NCBI GenBank assembly: GCA_000381565.1
Contig: KB906725.1
Location: 401,727-465,726 of the forward strand
Source of the DNA: Oxalobacteraceae bacterium AB_14
Lineage (GTDB): Bacteria; Pseudomonadota; Gammaproteobacteria; Burkholderiales; Burkholderiaceae_D
Reading direction: 5' to 3'
Length of the DNA: 64,000 nucleotides
The position numbers and the translations under genes were made by a program. This document shows positions 10,955-18,909 of this stretch, in pieces. Under the pieces are notes generated by a model. The model was not told the DNA's origin and did no database searches. It worked only from the letters and a program-made list of their open reading frames with translations. Every line of letters starts with the position of its first letter. Position 1 is the stretch's first letter.

Positions 10955-10969
10955 ATCTAGGGGATGGTT

Positions 10970-11296
10970 ATGGGACGCAGGCGAATCGAGGAAGCAGACT
11001 TCCCGACTTTGGTATGCGATCGACTCAAGGAATGGGGTTTGAGCATTAGGAAGCAGCGAGTGGCTCAAGGGATACTTGCAGTAGACTTGTGCAGCAGATT
11101 GGGGATCTCGCATCCCACACTACGCCGACTTGAACTCGGTGAGCCAACCATTGGAGCTGTCCACTACTTGTCGGCACTTCACGTGCTGGGCGTCATGGAA
11201 GCGATGGCGCCGCAACCGGATCCCGCCCTTTGGCGCATGACCGATGAAGCTCCGCGTGCGCGCGCACCCAAGAAAAATGACGATGAGTACTTCTGA
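10970..11296 (+). CDS. XRE-family regulator, HipB-like antitoxin
   Basis: A short DNA-binding protein of 108 residues from the ATG at 10970. That start is preferred over 10964 because TAGGGG lies at a normal distance before 10970 but abuts 10964. A helix-turn-helix of the XRE type spans about residues 22-75 (RKQRVAQGILAVDLCSRLGISHPTLRRLELGEPT). The tail (DEAPRARAPKKNDDEYF) is charged and probably flexible. The stop codon lies inside the downstream kinase gene, a typical antitoxin-toxin overlap. Likely role: represses the module through the direct repeats upstream and neutralises the HipA-like kinase. Function inferred from family and context. Confidence 0.78.
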   Translation: MGRRRIEEADFPTLVCDRLKEWGLSIRKQRVAQGILAVDLCSRLGISHPTLRRLELGEPTIGAVHYLSALHVLGVMEAMAPQPDPALWRMTDEAPRARAPKKNDDEYF

Positions 11297-12578
11297 AAGA
11301 ATCACCCAGATGGTATACGTGTATTTACAACGCCCCGATAACGGGCAGTGGGTCGTCGTCGGAAGATACGCACACGACCGCGGCGGAATTGGACGATTCA
11401 GATACGCGCCGAGCTACATCGAGAGCGGCGCGCGATGGACGATCGACCCTGTCAATCTCCCTCTGGTCGCCGACAGGGAATGGACTGCACCGCGGTATGC
11501 TGGACTGCATGACATTCTCCGCGATGCAAGTCCGGATGCGTGGGGGCAGGGATTGATTCGTCGCGAAACCGGCGTTGGAGAGAATGCTACACCCTTCCAT
11601 TACCTGCTCAACTCCGGTAATGGTGATCGGTGGGGGGCTCTTGCTGTGGGTACTGGTAGGAAGCCGAACATCGCGGGCCTGGGATCACCACGCATAGACA
11701 CATTAGATGACCTGGTCAAAGAGCTGCTGGCGATCGCGAATCATCAGCCGGCCATCAACCCAAGTGTGCGAAGGCGCTTATTTGCAACAGCGAGTTTGGG
11801 AGGTGTTCGGCCTAAGCTAACTGTGAGAGACGGCGACACATATTGGCTGGCCAAGCCAACCATCCATACCGACATTACTGACATCGCCAGGCTAGAAGCA
11901 GCTACACAGCGCTGGGGATCGGAAGCCGGGTTGAACTTCGCGCAAGCCACATACCGCTCTATGGAGGGCGGTCGGGGAGTTGTGCTTGTCAAGCGCTTCG
12001 ACCGTGAAGGGCCGCAGCGATTCATGACCGCTAGCAGCGCAACGCTGTTACAGGTTCAGTATCCACCGGTAACGCCTGCAGACGTCGCGGGGGCAAGCTA
12101 CCCCAGGTTAGCCGAGGAGCTGCGCCGTATCGGCGCCCCATCAGAAGACTGGAAGGAACTTTTCGGACGCATGGTATTTAACGCGATGGTTGGAAACGAC
12201 GACGATCATTGCAGGAACCACGCTGTGTACTACAGAGAGCGAGATGGAGCTTGGCGCCTGTCTCCCGCGTTCGACGTCGTTCCGAGCACAGAAGACACGC
12301 CAAAAACGCTGCAACTTCAATTGAGCAGGGGTAGTCGCGAGATTTCGAGAGTATCGATTTTGGCCGACTACCGACGCTTTGGCTTTCACGCTATCGAGGA
12401 AGCTCAGCGATTCATGGGCACACTTATTGAACGGATCGCGGACACATTCGACATCATTCGGGATCAGTTGCCGCCCGACATGGTCGAGGTAATGGAGCTG
12501 CGCGTCCAGACCAATAAGGTCTTGCTGCTGGGTGAGGCCGGCCCTGAAAATAAGCCTGCGCGCAAGCCGAAGCCCTGA
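11283..12578 (+). CDS. HipA-like serine/threonine kinase (toxin)
   Basis: 431 residues from the ATG at 11283 (alternatives at 11277 and 11307). It has an N-terminal HipA_N1-like beta domain (VYLQRPDNGQWVVVGRY...), the glycine-rich SLGGVRPKL loop, and the HipA active-site motif GNDDDHCRNH (304-313, catalytic Asp expected at D307), followed by PAFDVVPS as the metal-binding DFD equivalent. These are the marks of an active HipA kinase, which in characterised members phosphorylates aminoacyl-tRNA synthetases such as GltX. It overlaps the antitoxin gene by 14 bases. Base composition is less GC-biased than neighbours, consistent with acquisition. The target here is unknown. Confidence 0.85.
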   Translation: MSTSERITQMVYVYLQRPDNGQWVVVGRYAHDRGGIGRFRYAPSYIESGARWTIDPVNLPLVADREWTAPRYAGLHDILRDASPDAWGQGLIRRETGVGENATPFHYLLNSGNGDRWGALAVGTGRKPNIAGLGSPRIDTLDDLVKELLAIANHQPAINPSVRRRLFATASLGGVRPKLTVRDGDTYWLAKPTIHTDITDIARLEAATQRWGSEAGLNFAQATYRSMEGGRGVVLVKRFDREGPQRFMTASSATLLQVQYPPVTPADVAGASYPRLAEELRRIGAPSEDWKELFGRMVFNAMVGNDDDHCRNHAVYYRERDGAWRLSPAFDVVPSTEDTPKTLQLQLSRGSREISRVSILADYRRFGFHAIEEAQRFMGTLIERIADTFDIIRDQLPPDMVEVMELRVQTNKVLLLGEAGPENKPARKPKP

Positions 12579-12611: not shown

Positions 12612-13436
12612 CTACGCTTTGACTTCCAACTCACCCAGCAGCGCCAGGCAGGCGCGCGCGGCCGCGTTGTCCAGGTCCTTTTCCTCATGCCAGGCCGACA
12701 CCGATACGGCGACGATGTCAGGCCCGCGCAGCGAGCGGAACAAGGCCGCCATGTCGGCGTAGCTCGGTCCTGATTTGACGTGGTATTTCAGCGCCGGTAT
12801 TTCGGCTTCCGCGTCCATCACGTCGCTGTCGAAATGCAGGTAGAGGCGCTCGCCCGGCTTCACATGCTCGCCGATCTGCGCGATGCTGCAGCAGGTGATG
12901 CCGGAGCTTCGCACCGCCTCCAGCTCACCCGGATCGAGGTCGCGCGCGTCGGACAGGATCACCTGCCGTTCGGGGAAGGGCGTGACGCCGATGGCCGCCA
13001 ACATCGCACCGATGGCGTCGCGGCTTTGCTTGCGGCGGTCGCCGCGTCCCACCAGGATCGCCAGCGGCATGCCGCCGAGGTATTTGGTCTGCGTGGTTTC
13101 CCAGGTGTGGAAGTCGCCATGGGCGTCGAGCCACAGGATGCGGTCCGGCGGGCGTCCGCTGCGCTGCAGGCCGCCCAGCATGCCGAGCGTGGACATGCAG
13201 TCGCCGGAGATGCTGACCGGGACCCGGCCCGCGTCGACGATCCGCTCGACGCGCTCGGCCATGCCGGCGTAGATCCTGCCCATCCTGCGCAGCTTTTCGT
13301 TGGGATCGCTCAGCGTTGTCTCGGCAAAGTCGGGCACGTCGACGACGTCCCACTCATGGCGGTCGAGGTCGGTGACGCGGCGCAGGCCGTCGCGGCGCTG
13401 CCCGATCAGGAAGGGCAGCAGCAGGTGATTGTTCAT
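12612..13436 (-). CDS. Arginase/agmatinase-fold (ureohydrolase-like) protein
   Basis: 274 residues from the ATG at 13436, which overlaps the stop of the preceding sulfotransferase gene as ATGA; a GTG two codons earlier is possible. Metal-binding motifs of the ureohydrolase superfamily are present but altered: SGDCMST (C80 where arginases have His in GGDH), WLDAHGDFHT (D104, H106, D108) and HFDSDVMD (D203, D205, D208). Manganese binding is therefore plausible, with one Cys ligand. It is the last gene of a coupled three-gene operon with a methyltransferase and a sulfotransferase. The substrate (guanidino or amidino compound) is inferred only from the fold. Confidence 0.75.
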   Translation of the reverse strand: MNNHLLLPFLIGQRRDGLRRVTDLDRHEWDVVDVPDFAETTLSDPNEKLRRMGRIYAGMAERVERIVDAGRVPVSISGDCMSTLGMLGGLQRSGRPPDRILWLDAHGDFHTWETTQTKYLGGMPLAILVGRGDRRKQSRDAIGAMLAAIGVTPFPERQVILSDARDLDPGELEAVRSSGITCCSIAQIGEHVKPGERLYLHFDSDVMDAEAEIPALKYHVKSGPSYADMAALFRSLRGPDIVAVSVSAWHEEKDLDNAAARACLALLGELEVKA

Positions 13437-14671
13437 GTCCACGACTCCGGATTCATCGTGTAGCCCAGCTGCTCCATCATCGCCCGCACCGGCGGGCGCC
13501 GGCCCATGTCCAATAACGCCTGTTCGCGCTTGCGCCAGCGTAGCGCGCCGGGGGCGTCGGTGGCCATCGTCACGGGCAGCCGCGCCGGCAGCGGCAGATC
13601 GGACAGGCCAAGCAGGTCGCCAATGCGCTGCAGCTGCGCCGGCGGATGGTCCAGGAAGTCCTCGAACGCCACGCGCAGCGCCGGCACGCCGCTGGCAAGG
13701 ATCGCCTCATTCGATGCCAGCCATTGGTTCAGGCACACGTCGCCCAGCTCGGACTGGATGAATTGGCGCCAGTTGGGCGGCAGGTCGAACTTCCACCAGC
13801 GCCGGCCGAACGGCGTGGCGTCGGAATAGCCGCCTATCCGCAGCGCCGTGCCGGCGCGCGCCATGTCGTGCGCGAAGAAGCCCTTGGGCGACAGCCAGCC
13901 GTCCATCAAGCCATTGACCGACTGCGCATAGCCGCGGGTGAGGTGGAGGTACTGGATATCGGCGTTCGGGAACAGTTGCTCATGCATGCCGATCCGGTAG
14001 GCGTCGCTCGGCGATTTGAACAGCAGGATCTTGCTGGCCGCGTCGTCGATGGTGAACCGGCGGCGATAGCTGCGCGGCAGCACGAACGGCGGCTCTTCGA
14101 TCTTCAGCGGCTCGTCGTAGTAGCCGCTGGGGCCCAGGCCGAAATCGCGCAGCGACGATGGCGGCTGTCCATCATAAAAATTCATGCGCCATGGCTGGTC
14201 GCGAAACACCGCCGCCAGGATCGCGCTTTCCGTCTGCTGCTTGTTCGATTGCAGGGCCAGGTCCAGCGCATCGTTCAGCTTTCGGCGCTGCGCCGGGTCG
14301 ATGAACAGCAGCGGGTACTGCAACAGCAGGCGCCGCCGCCAGCGGTCCTTGAGTTGCTCCGGCGGCGGCAGCGTGGGACTGGGTACGCCGAGCTCGGCGA
14401 AGATGTTGTCGGCCAAGAGGTCCGGCTGCGCCAACATGCCGATGGCGTCACTGTCGGCGTGGACGCCGAAGCTGTTGCCGGTGAGCGCCAGGTACGGTTC
14501 CATCTCGCCATCGAGCGAGGCGATGTCCGGATGTTCGGCCAGCACGTGCTTGACCAGGCTGGACCCCGCGCGCGAATTGCAAAGTATCACCACCACACGC
14601 CGCACCAGCGGTCGCCACGGCGCATGGGCGACCGCGCGCAAGCCGGCGATGGTATCGAACACCTCGTTCAT
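13433..14671 (-). CDS. Sulfotransferase-family protein
   Basis: 412 residues from the ATG at 14671, which shares ATGA with the stop of the methyltransferase gene; upstream in-frame codons back to 14902 lie inside that gene and are ignored. The N-terminal beta-strand plus loop VVVILCNSRAGSSLV (26-40) matches the 5'-phosphosulfate loop of PAPS-dependent sulfotransferases, and a 3'-phosphate-binding region is likely near the later LHLTRGYAQS segment. No signal peptide. It is longer than typical small-molecule sulfotransferases (about 300), with an extra middle segment. Reaction expected: sulfuryl transfer from PAPS to a small hydroxylated or amino compound. The acceptor is unknown. Confidence 0.72.
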   Translation of the reverse strand: MNEVFDTIAGLRAVAHAPWRPLVRRVVVILCNSRAGSSLVKHVLAEHPDIASLDGEMEPYLALTGNSFGVHADSDAIGMLAQPDLLADNIFAELGVPSPTLPPPEQLKDRWRRRLLLQYPLLFIDPAQRRKLNDALDLALQSNKQQTESAILAAVFRDQPWRMNFYDGQPPSSLRDFGLGPSGYYDEPLKIEEPPFVLPRSYRRRFTIDDAASKILLFKSPSDAYRIGMHEQLFPNADIQYLHLTRGYAQSVNGLMDGWLSPKGFFAHDMARAGTALRIGGYSDATPFGRRWWKFDLPPNWRQFIQSELGDVCLNQWLASNEAILASGVPALRVAFEDFLDHPPAQLQRIGDLLGLSDLPLPARLPVTMATDAPGALRWRKREQALLDMGRRPPVRAMMEQLGYTMNPESWT

Positions 14672-15369
14672 ACGCTTGCGGTGTGAGGCAATCGCTTGAT
14701 GAGGAAGGCGTAGAACTCCTTGGTTTCGTCGGCGCGCGCGCGGGCCACCATGCGCATGCTGTAGCCGTTTTCCTTGGCCAGCTTGCGCACTTCCTTGACC
14801 GCGCCGAAATTGGAGTGTGCGAAATAAATGCGCCCGTCCGGTTTCAGATACTTGCCGACCTGCTGGAAGAACTGGGTATTGGTTCGGAAGTCGGTGTCCC
14901 ACTGCGAACGCGCGACGACGTCGGGAGCCTCCTTGTTGCGGAAGGGGAGGTTGGCGGTGATGACGTCGAACTGCTCGTCGCCGATGCCGTCGAACAGGCA
15001 GGAATAGCGCACTTCCATCGTCTCGCCGAAGCCGTGCTCGGCGGCGTTGTGCAGTGCGCTCTTCAGCGCGGCGGGGTTGATGTCGACGGCCAGCACGCGG
15101 GCGGCGCCGCCATAGCAGGCGAAGACCGCGATGACGCCGGAGCCGGTGCCGACATCGAGCACGCTGTCGCCCGGCTTGACGCGCAGGCTGGTGACCAGCG
15201 GCTGGCTATCCGTGTAGGGCCAGAAGGTATTGGGGAAGACGTGGAATTCCTTGCCGAGATAGCGGAATGTCTTGCCGTCGTCGGGTATTATTTTGAAAGC
15301 CTTCTGGCGGTCTTTCTGCCAGCGATCGATGTGCGCCAATTTGCCTGGGGAATGGTCCATTTCTATCAC
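14668..15369 (-). CDS. Class I SAM-dependent methyltransferase
   Basis: 233 residues. The SAM-binding motif DVGTGSG is at 72-78, the acidic ribose-binding residue is D96 in AVDINPAAL, and the catalytic-type motif is NLPF (140-143), a variant of the NPPF/NPPY signature of N-methyltransferases that act on amide or amino nitrogen. It is the first gene of an operon whose three members overlap as ATGA, so the products are probably made in fixed ratio. Its promoter must lie in 15370-15486, shared divergently with the TolB-like gene. A small-molecule substrate is inferred from the neighbours rather than from the sequence. Confidence 0.8.
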   Translation of the reverse strand: MIEMDHSPGKLAHIDRWQKDRQKAFKIIPDDGKTFRYLGKEFHVFPNTFWPYTDSQPLVTSLRVKPGDSVLDVGTGSGVIAVFACYGGAARVLAVDINPAALKSALHNAAEHGFGETMEVRYSCLFDGIGDEQFDVITANLPFRNKEAPDVVARSQWDTDFRTNTQFFQQVGKYLKPDGRIYFAHSNFGAVKEVRKLAKENGYSMRMVARARADETKEFYAFLIKRLPHTASV

Positions 15370-15486
15370 CTATCGGATGAAGGAAAGCAAAGTTGGATAG
15401 TACACCGATAATTTATCATTGGAAAAACAATTGAATACCGAAAGCGAAGTGGCTCGCGCCGGCGATTGCGACTATCCTTCACTTCC

Positions 15487-16356
15487 ATGAAGAAACTCAG
15501 TCACTACCTCGTCTTCGCCGCCACGGCCGTCGTCATCAACGCCGCGCAGGCGCAGATGCGGATTGAAATCAGCGGCGTCGGCAGCAATCAGATTCCTGTT
15601 GCCGTGGCCGGCTTCGCCGATGAAATCCTGGCGCCGCAGCAGATCTCCGCCATCATCAAGGCCGACCTGGAACGCGGCGGCATGTTCAAGCTGATCGATG
15701 CCGGCGCCATCACCGACCTCCACAACATCGACTACGCCGGCTGGAAAGCCAGGGGCGCCGATGCGCTGGTGGTGGGCACGGTGTCGGCGCTGGCCGACGG
15801 CCGCTACGACGTGCGCTACCAATTGTTCGACACCGTCAAGGCCAGCCAGCTGTCGCGCCAGGAGCAGTCGGTGTCCGGCCTGGCCGCGCGCCTGGCGGCG
15901 CACAAGATCGCCGACGATGTGTTCCTCAAGCTGACCGGCGTGCCCGGCGCGTTCGCCACCCGCATGGCCTACGTCAAAGAGGAGGGCGGCGCCTACCGGC
16001 TGGCCGTGGCCGACATCGACGGCGAGGGCGAGCAGACGGCGCGGCGTTCGAATACCCCCATCATTTCGCCGGCCTGGTCGCCGGACGGCGCCCGGCTGGC
16101 CGTGTCGCTGTCGATGGACGGCCATACGCAGATCTACACCGTCAACGCCGACGGCAGCGGCTTGCGCCGCGTGTCCGACGGCACCGACGACCTGTCGCCC
16201 AGTTTCGCGCCGAACGGCAAGTACCTCATCTACGCCACCGAGGCGGCCGGGCGCAAGTCGCTGATGGTGGTGTCGGTCGATGGCCGCGTGAAGCAGAAGC
16301 TCAGCGCCCAGGATGGCGACATCAGGCAGCCAGCTTGGGGGCCTTTCCGGCCCTGA
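15487..16356 (+). CDS. TolB-like protein with shortened beta-propeller
   Basis: 289 residues from the ATG at 15487: a signal peptide ending at ...INAAQA, a TolB N-terminal domain (about 23-152; VAGFADE, DLERGGMFKLID, DYAGWKARGADALVVG) and only two to three propeller repeats (155-287) in place of the six blades of a normal TolB (about 430 residues). The segment PIISPAWSPDG runs directly into a blade with DGHTQIYTVNADGSG and then into the last-blade motif SPSFAPNGKYLIYAT. The canonical TolB ending GDIRQPAWGPF is kept. This looks like in-frame loss of inner blades. tolQRA and pal are not adjacent, so it is a stand-alone paralogue. The 3' end overlaps the convergent gene at 16322 by 35 bases. Confidence 0.82.
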   Translation: MKKLSHYLVFAATAVVINAAQAQMRIEISGVGSNQIPVAVAGFADEILAPQQISAIIKADLERGGMFKLIDAGAITDLHNIDYAGWKARGADALVVGTVSALADGRYDVRYQLFDTVKASQLSRQEQSVSGLAARLAAHKIADDVFLKLTGVPGAFATRMAYVKEEGGAYRLAVADIDGEGEQTARRSNTPIISPAWSPDGARLAVSLSMDGHTQIYTVNADGSGLRRVSDGTDDLSPSFAPNGKYLIYATEAAGRKSLMVVSVDGRVKQKLSAQDGDIRQPAWGPFRP

Positions 16357-17865: not shown

Positions 17866-18909
17866 TCAGAGCGCCGTCTCGTAACCTTCGAGGACATTGA
17901 CGACGTTGGTGCCCAGCTCCTTGACCGCGTAGCCGCCCTCGAAGATGAAGGCGGTGGGCAGGTTCAGCCAGGCCAGGCGCTCGCCGATTTTCAGGTAGTC
18001 GGCGCTTTGCAGCGCGAAGCGCGACAGCGGATCGCCGACGAAGGTGTCGACGCCCAGCGACACCACCAGCGCGTCCGGCGCGAAGCTGCCCAGGCGGATG
18101 CAGGCCGTCTCCAGCGCCGCGAACCAGGCCTGCGGCGAGCTGCCCGCCGCCAGCGGCAGGTTCATGTTGTAGCCCAGCCCCGCGCCCTCGCCGCGCTCGT
18201 CGGCGTGGCCCAGGTAGAACGGATATTCGTTGCGCGGATCGGCGTGGATGGAGATGAACAGCACGTCGTCGCGGTGATAGAAAATGCTCTGGGTGCCGTT
18301 GCCGTGGTGGTAGTCGATGTCGATGATGGCGACCTTGCGGGCGCCGTCGTCGAGCATGTGCTGCGCGGCCAGCGCGGCGTTGTTGAGGAAGCAGTAGCCG
18401 CCGAAGAAATCCGCGCCCGCGTGGTGGCCCGGCGGACGGCTCAACACGAAGGCGCCGCGTTCGCCCAGCCGCAGCGCGTGCGCGGCGTTGACCGCGCAAT
18501 CGGCGCCGGTCTTGGCGGCGGTCCAGGTGCCGGCCGTCAGCGGCGTGCCGCTGTCCATCGAATACAGTCCCAGCTTGGCGCAGAAGTTGTCCGGCTCGAT
18601 GTCGTCGCGCAGCGAGCGGATCGGCCAGACGGCGGGGAAGGCGTCCTTGCCGGCGTTGGCCGGATCGAGCGCCAGCCATTCGTTCCAGGCGCCGCGCAGG
18701 AAGTGCAGGTAGCGCGGCGTATGGATGCGCTCGAGCGACATCAGCGGCACGCCGTGCGGCGTGACGATCTTGCCCAGGCCGCGCCGTCCCAGCTCGGCCA
18801 GCACCGAGTCGACCCGCTCCGGCTTTTCGAAGCACGGCACCATCTCGCCGCGGAAGATCTCGTAGCGGCCGCGATGCTGCGCGTGCAGTTCGTTGTAGAA
18901 GGTGAGCAA
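17866..18909 (-). CDS. Zinc-dependent deacetylase, HDAC / acetylpolyamine amidohydrolase family
   Basis: 347 residues. The start is a TTG at 18909: conserved family N-terminal sequence (YNELHAQHRGRYEIF) precedes the first internal Met, and AGGGG lies upstream. Catalytic residues are all present: HH162-163 in RPPGHHA, D199 and H201 in DIDYHHGNGT, D288 in SLGVDTF and Y327 in EGGYAV. The NEYPFYLGHADERGEG loop resembles bacterial acetylpolyamine deacetylases more than histone deacetylases. It hydrolyses N-acetyl groups from polyamines or lysine side chains in the cytoplasm. It lies 12 bases after gshA and upstream of the degenerate GGDEF gene, so it is probably in one operon with them. Confidence 0.87.
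   Translation of the reverse strand: MLTFYNELHAQHRGRYEIFRGEMVPCFEKPERVDSVLAELGRRGLGKIVTPHGVPLMSLERIHTPRYLHFLRGAWNEWLALDPANAGKDAFPAVWPIRSLRDDIEPDNFCAKLGLYSMDSGTPLTAGTWTAAKTGADCAVNAAHALRLGERGAFVLSRPPGHHAGADFFGGYCFLNNAALAAQHMLDDGARKVAIIDIDYHHGNGTQSIFYHRDDVLFISIHADPRNEYPFYLGHADERGEGAGLGYNMNLPLAAGSSPQAWFAALETACIRLGSFAPDALVVSLGVDTFVGDPLSRFALQSADYLKIGERLAWLNLPTAFIFEGGYAVKELGTNVVNVLEGYETAL

Follow-up and report, generated by a model that had tools for sequence, protein, structure and literature searches.

A conserved methyltransferase–sulfotransferase–ureohydrolase gene trio and its association with a sensor-kinase cassette

Signalling pairs composed of a binding protein and a hybrid kinase follow a LuxPQ-like logic. 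DcsB, the N(omega)-hydroxy-L-arginine hydrolase of D-cycloserine biosynthesis (PDB 6lug, 7eun, 9ixe), has the arginase fold and acts as the partner of DcsA. Sulfotransferase domains have been solved from CurM and from an olefin synthase (4gbm, 4gox), in both cases as parts of polyketide synthases. DcsA belongs to the YqcI/YcgG enzymes, which hydroxylate guanidine N-H bonds in the account given in PMC12866846. In Streptomyces, the late steps of mediomycin/clethramycin biosynthesis, described in PMC5704753, combine a sulfotransferase with an amidinohydrolase whose gene is located 670 kb from the cluster; both enzymes work on the same giant polyketide. The open-access literature that we searched gave no pathway with the three-enzyme set described below, in accordance with what the sequence-only reading of this DNA had stated, and the mediomycin pair was the nearest case; it differs in that the genes of our set are three in number and coupled, and the annotated proteins that flank them include no polyketide synthase.

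The window, the whole 64,000-nucleotide stretch of Oxalobacteraceae bacterium AB_14 DNA that was analyzed, carries on its minus strand genes for a methyltransferase (MT), a sulfotransferase (SUL) and a ureohydrolase (URE), with both of the ATGA joins that had been noted from the sequence (Table 1). The MT gene had been given as beginning at 15369; the gene is there, though this position is an in-frame GTG lying 9 bases upstream of the ATG at 15360. A 489-aa open reading frame from 14902 is an upstream extension of the SUL frame inside MT. In four genomes, open frames of ~700 aa that cover URE had suggested a fusion of SUL and URE; this was rejected, as these loci show separate genes with 4-nt overlaps. 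Simple pairwise dN/dS between the window's genes and five relatives was 0.12–0.37 for MT, 0.28–0.60 for SUL and 0.15–0.40 for URE.

Table 1. Features of the three-gene locus (positions in the window; URE residues follow the 273-residue numbering of alignment A1)
Feature	Position	Strand	Description
MT	14668-15360	-	230 aa, ATG start, AGGTGA upstream
SUL	13433-14671	-	412 aa, ATG start, Pfam Sulfotransfer_3
URE	12612-13436	-	274 aa, ATG start, ureohydrolase fold, Cys-type metal site
ATGA overlap, MT stop / SUL start	14668-14671	-	read from sequence
ATGA overlap, SUL stop / URE start	13433-13436	-	read from sequence
URE Cys79 codon	13197-13199	-	aligned with arginase His101 and DcsB Cys86
URE Ala247 codon	12693-12695	-	aligned with guanidinium-binding Glu277 of arginase

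The three genes form one conserved unit. Scattered homologues would have spoken against a shared function, and instead MT, SUL and URE stand in this order at 24/24 loci from 23 genomes in which URE is at least 54% identical, with MT broken at one of them (L011). The overlap between SUL and URE is 4 or 10 nt at every locus, and the MT–SUL spacing stays between -17 and +14 nt (24/24, measured from the broken MT in L011), which exceeds what chance would give. The loci were collected by scanning with peptide patterns, by which some may be missed, and L055, taken as the same genome as L009, was excluded from alignments and trees. In 240 genomes of the family, treated as one draw for the SUL, binding-protein, YqcI/YcgG and flavoprotein counts, SUL was found in 11 at E 1e-10 (the limits for SUL, the binding protein and the flavoprotein being the analyst's choice), and all 11 were also URE-positive. 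Among 300 genomes of the taxonomic order, 1 gave a match at E 1e-30, and it was the one the window comes from. Two of the 23 trio genomes are Patescibacteria bins, and 286 genomes of the phylum of one of them, G536, gave a match in G536 only. The gene trees of the trio show no well-supported conflict as judged by eye, and no SUL or URE match of at least 60% identity was found in 72,556 plasmid records. We propose that the trio is passed down as one block, with transfer on occasion. Anti-phage defence was considered and set aside: SUL and URE matched 0 PADLOC families at E 0.01, while MT matched mad2 over 150 residues plus general methyltransferase models.

MT is a class I SAM-dependent methyltransferase of HemK/PrmC-like type, with several methyltransferase models above their cut-offs. 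Enzymes of this type carry an (N/D)PPY-type motif, a mark of HemK-like N-methyl transfer, and the NLPF form of it picked out earlier is confirmed: N137, P139 and F140 are invariant in 22/22 members and L138 nearly so (alignment A3, which, like the MT tree, excludes the broken L011 copy). Against curated named enzymes the best score was 89.8 bits with a cut-off of 162 (NF011529), and no curated family reached its cut-off among the best 25 of 69 families.

SUL is, by domain, PSB loop and fold, a PAPS-type sulfotransferase, with PAPS use predicted. Its Sulfotransfer_3 match is above the cut-off (7.6e-9), PF13469 is found in 23/23 members, and the PSB-loop residues R34, G36 and S37 are invariant across all 23, so the assignment made from the sequence holds. 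The predicted structure resembles PAPS sulfotransferases (Z 15.2, rmsd 4.2 and 221 aligned residues to 4gbm; Z 14.3 to 4gox), and these CurM and olefin synthase domains are among the best folds; no other sulfotransferase occurs among the PDB profile matches of SUL. Tyrosylprotein sulfotransferases, however, tie within 1 Z unit, and the fold does not reveal the acceptor because the scores of polyketide, protein-tyrosine and heparan sulfotransferases differ little. An APS kinase was present in 4/5 genomes tested, and none was found in the Parcubacteria draft. That SUL is a carbohydrate or tyrosine sulfotransferase, and that its polymer (a surface polysaccharide, peptide or protein) is also the target of MT and URE, would agree with the nearly equal fit to tyrosylprotein and heparan sulfotransferases and with a weak NoeE similarity in 2/23 SUL members. 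We nevertheless consider such macromolecule decoration improbable: among open reading frames of at least 90 aa, a comparison that a small peptide gene could escape, no real non-trio family recurs in more than 7/24 loci, those that reach 7 are kinases and a binding protein, and 20 annotated flank proteins include no glycosyltransferase.

URE belongs to the arginase fold (Pfam PF00491, 3.1e-21, 76.5 bits, cut-off 22), and its AF2 model, a confident one (pLDDT 92.1), matches both arginases (Z 28) and DcsB (Z 27.5); with 4ity it aligns over 260 residues (Z 28.4, rmsd 2.5). The altered metal site suspected from the sequence is real. Of the six-ligand set (His, Asp, His, Asp, Asp, Asp), D103, H105, D107, D202 and D204 are invariant in 28/28 sequences and the first ligand, His in the set, is Cys in all 28. 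DcsB, a proven PF00491 member, bears the same Cys ligand. In arginase, Glu277 holds the guanidinium and Asn130 the alpha-carboxylate; at the positions of Asn130, His141 and Glu277 URE has His109, Gly120 and Ala247, with Ala or Ser at the Glu277 place across the family. Since the residues holding the guanidinium and the carboxylate are replaced, an arginine-like substrate is unlikely, and with Glu277 changed to Ala/Ser and Asn130 to His throughout the URE family, the arginine-like guanidino compound that had been put forward loses its footing. Identity as an arginine or agmatine hydrolase was rejected on these substrate residues together with the equivalog scores (80 bits for the arginase equivalog TIGR01229, cut-off 227.6).

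The likeness to DcsB raises a different chemistry, in which the three enzymes would act on an N-hydroxylated nitrogen, whether of a hydroxyguanidine, a hydroxyurea, a hydroxylamine or an oxime: SUL would cap the N-OH as an O-sulfate, making the nitrogen electrophilic or masking it, and URE would free the amine or a hydroxyurea-like part. The Cys ligand (C79 of URE, C86 of DcsB) and the change of His141 to Gly, which in URE and DcsB falls within a YLGGM stretch, are common to URE, DcsB and four family members of the DcsB-like Cys type; with these four URE also groups in a tree that carries a long-branch warning (L048, another Cys-bearing ureohydrolase, was excluded from it, and alignment A1 excluded L015, L017, L019, L020, L021 and L023, six of 11 distant URE loci). 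In haloarchaeal plasmid loci, moreover, a SUL homologue stands with an APS kinase (CysC) and a YqcI/YcgG protein in 9/9 cases. It is homologous to SUL over nearly its whole length (29–31% identity, 87–93% of the query covered) and shares the motifs LDGE, NGL.DGW, DLPP.W and RW. Here the APS kinase and the N-hydroxylase-family protein take the place of MT and URE, neither of which gave a match there at E 1e-8. From this parallel in haloarchaea comes a hint that N-oxygenated compounds may be substrates of this subfamily of sulfotransferases.

Several observations weigh against N-O chemistry. The guanidinium-binding Glu and carboxylate-binding Asn lost in URE are kept in DcsB, and a further difference is that Ser replaces the acidic residue at position 244 in URE. 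A DcsA-type hydroxylase encoded elsewhere in the trio genomes was also considered and rejected, as PF08892, the YqcI/YcgG family, occurs in 9/240 family genomes and in 0/11 with the trio. In the window's genus, the trio is followed in five genomes by a flavoprotein with weak similarity to Lys/Orn N-monooxygenases, which was found within this genus only beside the trio. The best family of the flavoprotein, however, is NAD_binding_9, not an N-hydroxylase, and it was not found in the window's genome (G000) or in G144 at E 1e-40. With homologues in 17 other genomes of the family as well, it was rejected as a general fourth member and is a lineage addition at most. A connection to N-hydroxyguanidine chemistry remains, weaker and indirect, through the Cys ligand shared with DcsB and the YqcI/YcgG neighbour of the haloarchaeal SUL homologue. 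We regard N-O chemistry as rather unlikely.

Apart from its own conservation, the trio is associated with a sensor-kinase cassette made up of a hybrid kinase (HK550), an SsuA-like binding protein (SBP) and a HAMP-GAF hybrid kinase (HK847). At five loci from at least three lineages the trio lies precisely between HK550 on one side and SBP with its kinase on the other (counted as three since L007, L010, from Undibacterium sp. TS12, and L058 form one clade in the kinase tree), and at two more it lies beside the cassette; in that tree the nested loci form no clade of their own. SBP (E 1e-60) was found in 10/11 trio genomes versus 15/229 others, and in the window's genus in 7/7 versus 1/10. Fisher tests of this link treat genomes as independent, and the genus-level test is the safer. 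The whole cassette was seen in 10/10 SBP-positive trio genomes; among the 15 SBP genomes without the trio, it was checked in 6. Trio and kinase distances correlate after gshA is removed (partial r 0.58, 14 genomes), where p 0.0005 is a guide only, permutation removing relatedness. In the window's genome the cassette is on another contig than the trio, and the larger pattern, in which the trio is embedded in the cassette of other genomes, lies outside what the window alone shows. No cassette was seen within the 6-kb flanks of six Duganella/Rugamonas loci (L002–L005, L008, L013) or of the two Patescibacteria loci. One genome (G107) has the trio and no SBP at the threshold used, and since SBP also stands without the trio in 15/229 genomes, neither requires the other. 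Pfam gives no DNA-binding domain for either of the two L006 kinases, so no regulatory route to the trio is visible.

The cassette resembles binding-protein/hybrid-kinase pairs in placing a binding-protein gene beside a HAMP-containing hybrid kinase, but its binding protein is of SsuA/NMT1 type and HK550 is no LuxQ by NCBIfam (268 bits, cut-off 1200). The best family of SBP is SsuA (aliphatic sulfonate; 110.9 bits, below the cut-off of 163.5), and its best PDB relative is a taurine-binding protein. This nearness to SsuA/TauA proteins would suit a cassette that turns the trio on when it senses a sulfonate or sulfate ester in the environment, the product being an osmolyte, a storage compound or a detoxified compound and not a signal. 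In support, the SBP genomes that lack the trio mean that the SBP ligand need not come from it. On the other side, the trio's nested position, seen in at least three lineages, suggests that the two have more in common than a trigger, and the 20 annotated trio-flank proteins include no ABC transporter, a weak point as free-standing cassettes lie outside that set. We hold such a sulfur-responsive role to be possible, if doubtful.

Taken together, the joint upkeep of the trio in distant bacteria, at some loci inside a sensor cluster, means that the three enzymes probably make one sulfated small molecule. The reading we favour, and hold with about even confidence, is that together they form a single short pathway whose product is a small metabolite, both sulfated and N-methylated, with a tie to the cassette. 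We infer here the three activities, the small-molecule nature of the product, the order of steps and the direction of the sensor link. In this pathway, the genes would be translationally coupled; MT would methylate, probably on nitrogen given its HemK-like NLPF motif; SUL would move sulfate from PAPS supplied through the cell's own APS kinase; and URE would cut a C-N bond through its dinuclear metal site, in which one His has become Cys, on a substrate that is presumably not arginine-like. In Oxalobacteraceae the trio would work with the cassette and its exported or membrane-anchored SsuA/taurine-type binding protein, and the cassette would either sense the trio's product or set the timing of its production.

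The product may act as a signal or be signal-controlled. A stronger form, in which the trio acts as synthase for a small-molecule signal that is sulfated and N-methylated (possibly N-O-sulfated) and the HK550/SBP/HK847 cassette as its receptor in a new chemical signalling system, is unlikely on present evidence. Since the three-gene order is kept in 23 genomes, including the small-genome Patescibacteria bins, the pathway probably uses common precursors, and for that reason the product may be found by expressing the three genes in a laboratory strain. Having a Cys ligand but lacking a guanidinium anchor, the URE active site could stand for a reaction new to the arginase fold. The SsuA-like sensor link provides a concrete, testable proposal of a sulfated bacterial signal. 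If that reading were true, genomes with the cassette and without the trio would be listeners, and the few Patescibacteria with the trio, near which no cassette was seen, could send to their neighbours.

We examined the methyltransferase (MT), PAPS-type sulfotransferase (SUL) and ureohydrolase-fold (URE) genes, together the trio, in the window's genome (7.03 Mb, nine contigs) and in its relatives. The sequence-only reading of three enzyme genes joined by ATGA overlaps is correct at both the MT/SUL and the SUL/URE junction. All three proteins score over Pfam cut-offs (methyltransferase models, Sulfotransfer_3 and Arginase, respectively), while no NCBIfam family reaches its cut-off among the 25 of 69 matches listed for MT or among all matches for SUL and URE. 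None of the other mapped loci had an ORF that grouped as a homologue of the window's HipA, and the putative histone-deacetylase-like protein nearby, recognized by reading, belongs to a family with the same fold class as arginase.

Features of the window and of related loci (L) and genomes (G)
Feature	Coordinates	Strand or orientation	Description
MT	15360-14668	minus	230 aa
SUL	14671-13433	minus	412 aa
URE	13436-12612	minus	274 aa
TolB-like protein	15466-16356	divergent from operon	short, 296 aa; TolB_N and PD40 repeats
HipB/HipA-like toxin-antitoxin pair	10964-12578	downstream of operon, convergent
Histone-deacetylase-like protein (putative)	17866-18909		adjoins gshA-like gene; no operon link seen
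Broken MT, Parcubacteria trio locus	L011:4352-4758		middle part missing, including SAM-binding region; two ends in different frames
Flavoprotein near trio	L060:7670-9112		relatives in G155, G177, G228, G235
Haloarchaeal cluster	L119:7869-10965		sulfotransferase, adenylyl-sulfate kinase, YqcI/YcgG protein; also L120, L122, L132-L137
HK550 (hybrid kinase)			receiver-kinase-receiver
SBP (SsuA-like binding protein)			NMT1 domain; hydrophobic N-terminus (by reading)
HK847 (hybrid kinase)			HAMP-GAF-kinase-receiver

Scanning 84,980 species genomes with a URE pattern returned 23 loci. Twelve carry URE at 55-92% identity, each with MT and SUL directly upstream; eleven carry URE at 33-41% identity, and in the locus DNA examined they gave no match to MT or to SUL at E 1e-5. 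A URE search within the same bacterial family gave some match in 50 of 245 genomes at E 1e-5, of which 12, window included, have URE at 55% identity or more, and all 12 have the other two genes. The searches combined yield 24 trio loci in 23 genomes (L009 and L055 were judged one genome). Co-occurrence of the three families, the check that the sequence-only reading had proposed, is thus seen in 24 of 24 loci, with a SUL-URE overlap of 4 or 10 nt and an MT-SUL spacing of -17 to +14 nt throughout; with SUL as the query, 11 of 240 family genomes were found, all of them URE-positive. The gene trees show no well-supported conflict by eye, and all three genes are under purifying selection, which argues against a relic. 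The finding is stronger than a reader of the sequence alone could know. MT is broken in the Parcubacteria locus L011, where SUL and URE are intact.

The distribution of the trio is patchy: it occurs in 7 of 17 sampled genomes of the window's genus, and at E 1e-30 a draw of 300 genomes from the order recovered no genome but the window's. Duganella and Rugamonas are the nearest named relatives at the locus. Two Patescibacteria bins (L011 and L012) also carry the trio, with sister SUL and URE sequences; the L011 neighbours, at 41-49% G+C, include an Mfd-like helicase and genes resembling gyrase A and peptidyl-tRNA hydrolase by reading, though bins can mislead. SUL was found in 1 of 286 genomes of the phylum of Kerfeldbacterium, the Kerfeldbacterium genome itself.

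The altered metal site proposed for the arginase-fold enzyme is borne out: the first ligand is Cys79 in all 28 aligned sequences, and the other five (D103, H105, D107, D202, D204) are invariant. The AlphaFold model of URE (mean pLDDT 92.1, 28 sequences) matches arginases (Z 28) and DcsB, the N(omega)-hydroxy-L-arginine hydrolase of D-cycloserine biosynthesis (Z 27.5), a pathway that pairs DcsB with the YqcI/YcgG enzyme DcsA. Five places were compared in 18 further arginase-family loci from the bacterial family: 13 show the classical His, Asn, His, Asp, Glu, four the DcsB pattern Cys, Asn, Gly, Glu, Glu, and one neither. The trio URE reads Cys, His, Gly, Ser, Ala; it shares the Cys ligand and the Gly with DcsB but differs in His for Asn, Ser for Glu and Ala for Glu. 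Cys79 corresponds in the alignment to DcsB Cys86, a residue that PDB titles mention, and the tree places URE with the Cys-type branch, subject to a long-branch warning. Since URE lacks the Glu and Asn kept in both the classical and DcsB-like patterns, which we take from arginase structures to hold the guanidinium and the alpha-carboxylate, respectively, we infer a live metallohydrolase whose substrate would be unlike arginine. The earlier suggestion of a guanidino substrate is weakened in its simple form by the same losses. URE relatives at 37-40% identity in Chloroflexota and Actinomycetota bins (L014, L016, L018, L022, L024) share the Cys and the His109/Trp111 pattern but lack a neighbouring MT or SUL; they form an uncharacterised, putative Cys-type ureohydrolase family.

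The SUL model (pLDDT 81.1) matches sulfotransferases, with CurM and tyrosylprotein sulfotransferases tied as best fold matches (Z 15.2 and 15.0), so the fold does not reveal its acceptor. The nearest matches of MT are enzymes of the HemK and PrmA types, together with a PDB entry for an apramycin-pathway N-methyltransferase. SUL homologues occur in ten plasmid records, one from Streptomyces and nine haloarchaeal, the latter at 29-31% identity over 87-93% of the query. In all nine haloarchaeal loci, one of them unannotated and assigned by tblastn, APS kinase comes next after the sulfotransferase and a YqcI/YcgG gene lies beside the pair, on the opposite side and strand in Halocatena. YqcI/YcgG enzymes hydroxylate a guanidine N-H, and DcsA is listed among the members (PMC12866846). 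The haloarchaeal cluster may be a dedicated pathway sulfating an N-hydroxylated compound. Together these links give an indirect triangle, connecting SUL with YqcI/YcgG in haloarchaea, YqcI/YcgG (as DcsA) with DcsB, and the DcsB-like URE with SUL here; against it counts that no trio genome of the family sample has a YqcI/YcgG gene. The four family genomes with DcsB-like Cys-type ureohydrolases (L037, L038, L040, L051) measure 2.2-3.8 Mb, and none of them is one of the nine in which a YqcI/YcgG gene was found. Five genomes of the window's genus have, near the trio, a flavoprotein with NAD_binding_9 and weak Lys/Orn N-monooxygenase similarity; the remaining 12 sampled genomes of the genus gave no match to it at E 1e-40.

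Regulators flank the trio in seven loci. Mapping showed that HK550, SBP and HK847 form one cassette, which also occurs without the trio. Five loci (L006, L007, L010 of Undibacterium, L056, L058) hold the trio exactly between HK550 and SBP, and they represent at least three lineages because L007, L010 and L058 group together; without the trio, HK550 and SBP are directly adjacent, as in L076 and L077. In L064 and L065, a cassette ordered SBP-HK847-HK550 lies convergent to the trio, and the 6-kb flanks of L002-L005, L008 and L013 contain none. The window's genome has its cassette on a different contig, ∼5 kb from the APS kinase gene. At E 1e-60, SBP is present in 10 of 11 trio genomes compared with 15 of 229 others (240-genome sample; Fisher 2.3e-10), and within the window's genus in 7 of 7 compared with 1 of 10 (4.1e-4). 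Distances of the trio and HK847 correlate after gshA removal (partial r 0.58, 14 genomes). The kinase tree gives nested loci no separate clade; they join cassettes of genomes without the trio or with it elsewhere. The nearest relatives of SBP are SsuA and taurine-binding proteins, with a score under the curated cut-off. What tells most in this pattern is the link of a sulfonate-type binding protein to an operon with a sulfotransferase.

The operon unit, the altered residues and the association with the cassette in genomes are shown. Most likely, MT, SUL and URE would modify one small precursor in sequence, with the activities and step order predicted. PAPS would come from the cell's own APS kinase, which was found in four of five genomes tested and not in the L011 draft. 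The product would leave the cell; among the few loci with annotated flanks, L064 and L065 have a gene for an RND pump 1.5 kb and 0.1 kb upstream of MT, respectively. SBP and the kinases would respond either to the product or to an environmental sulfonate calling for its production, the direction of this link being one that we infer. Of the new facts, the most valuable are that the trio is nested in a sensor cassette of SsuA-like type and that haloarchaea offer a parallel.
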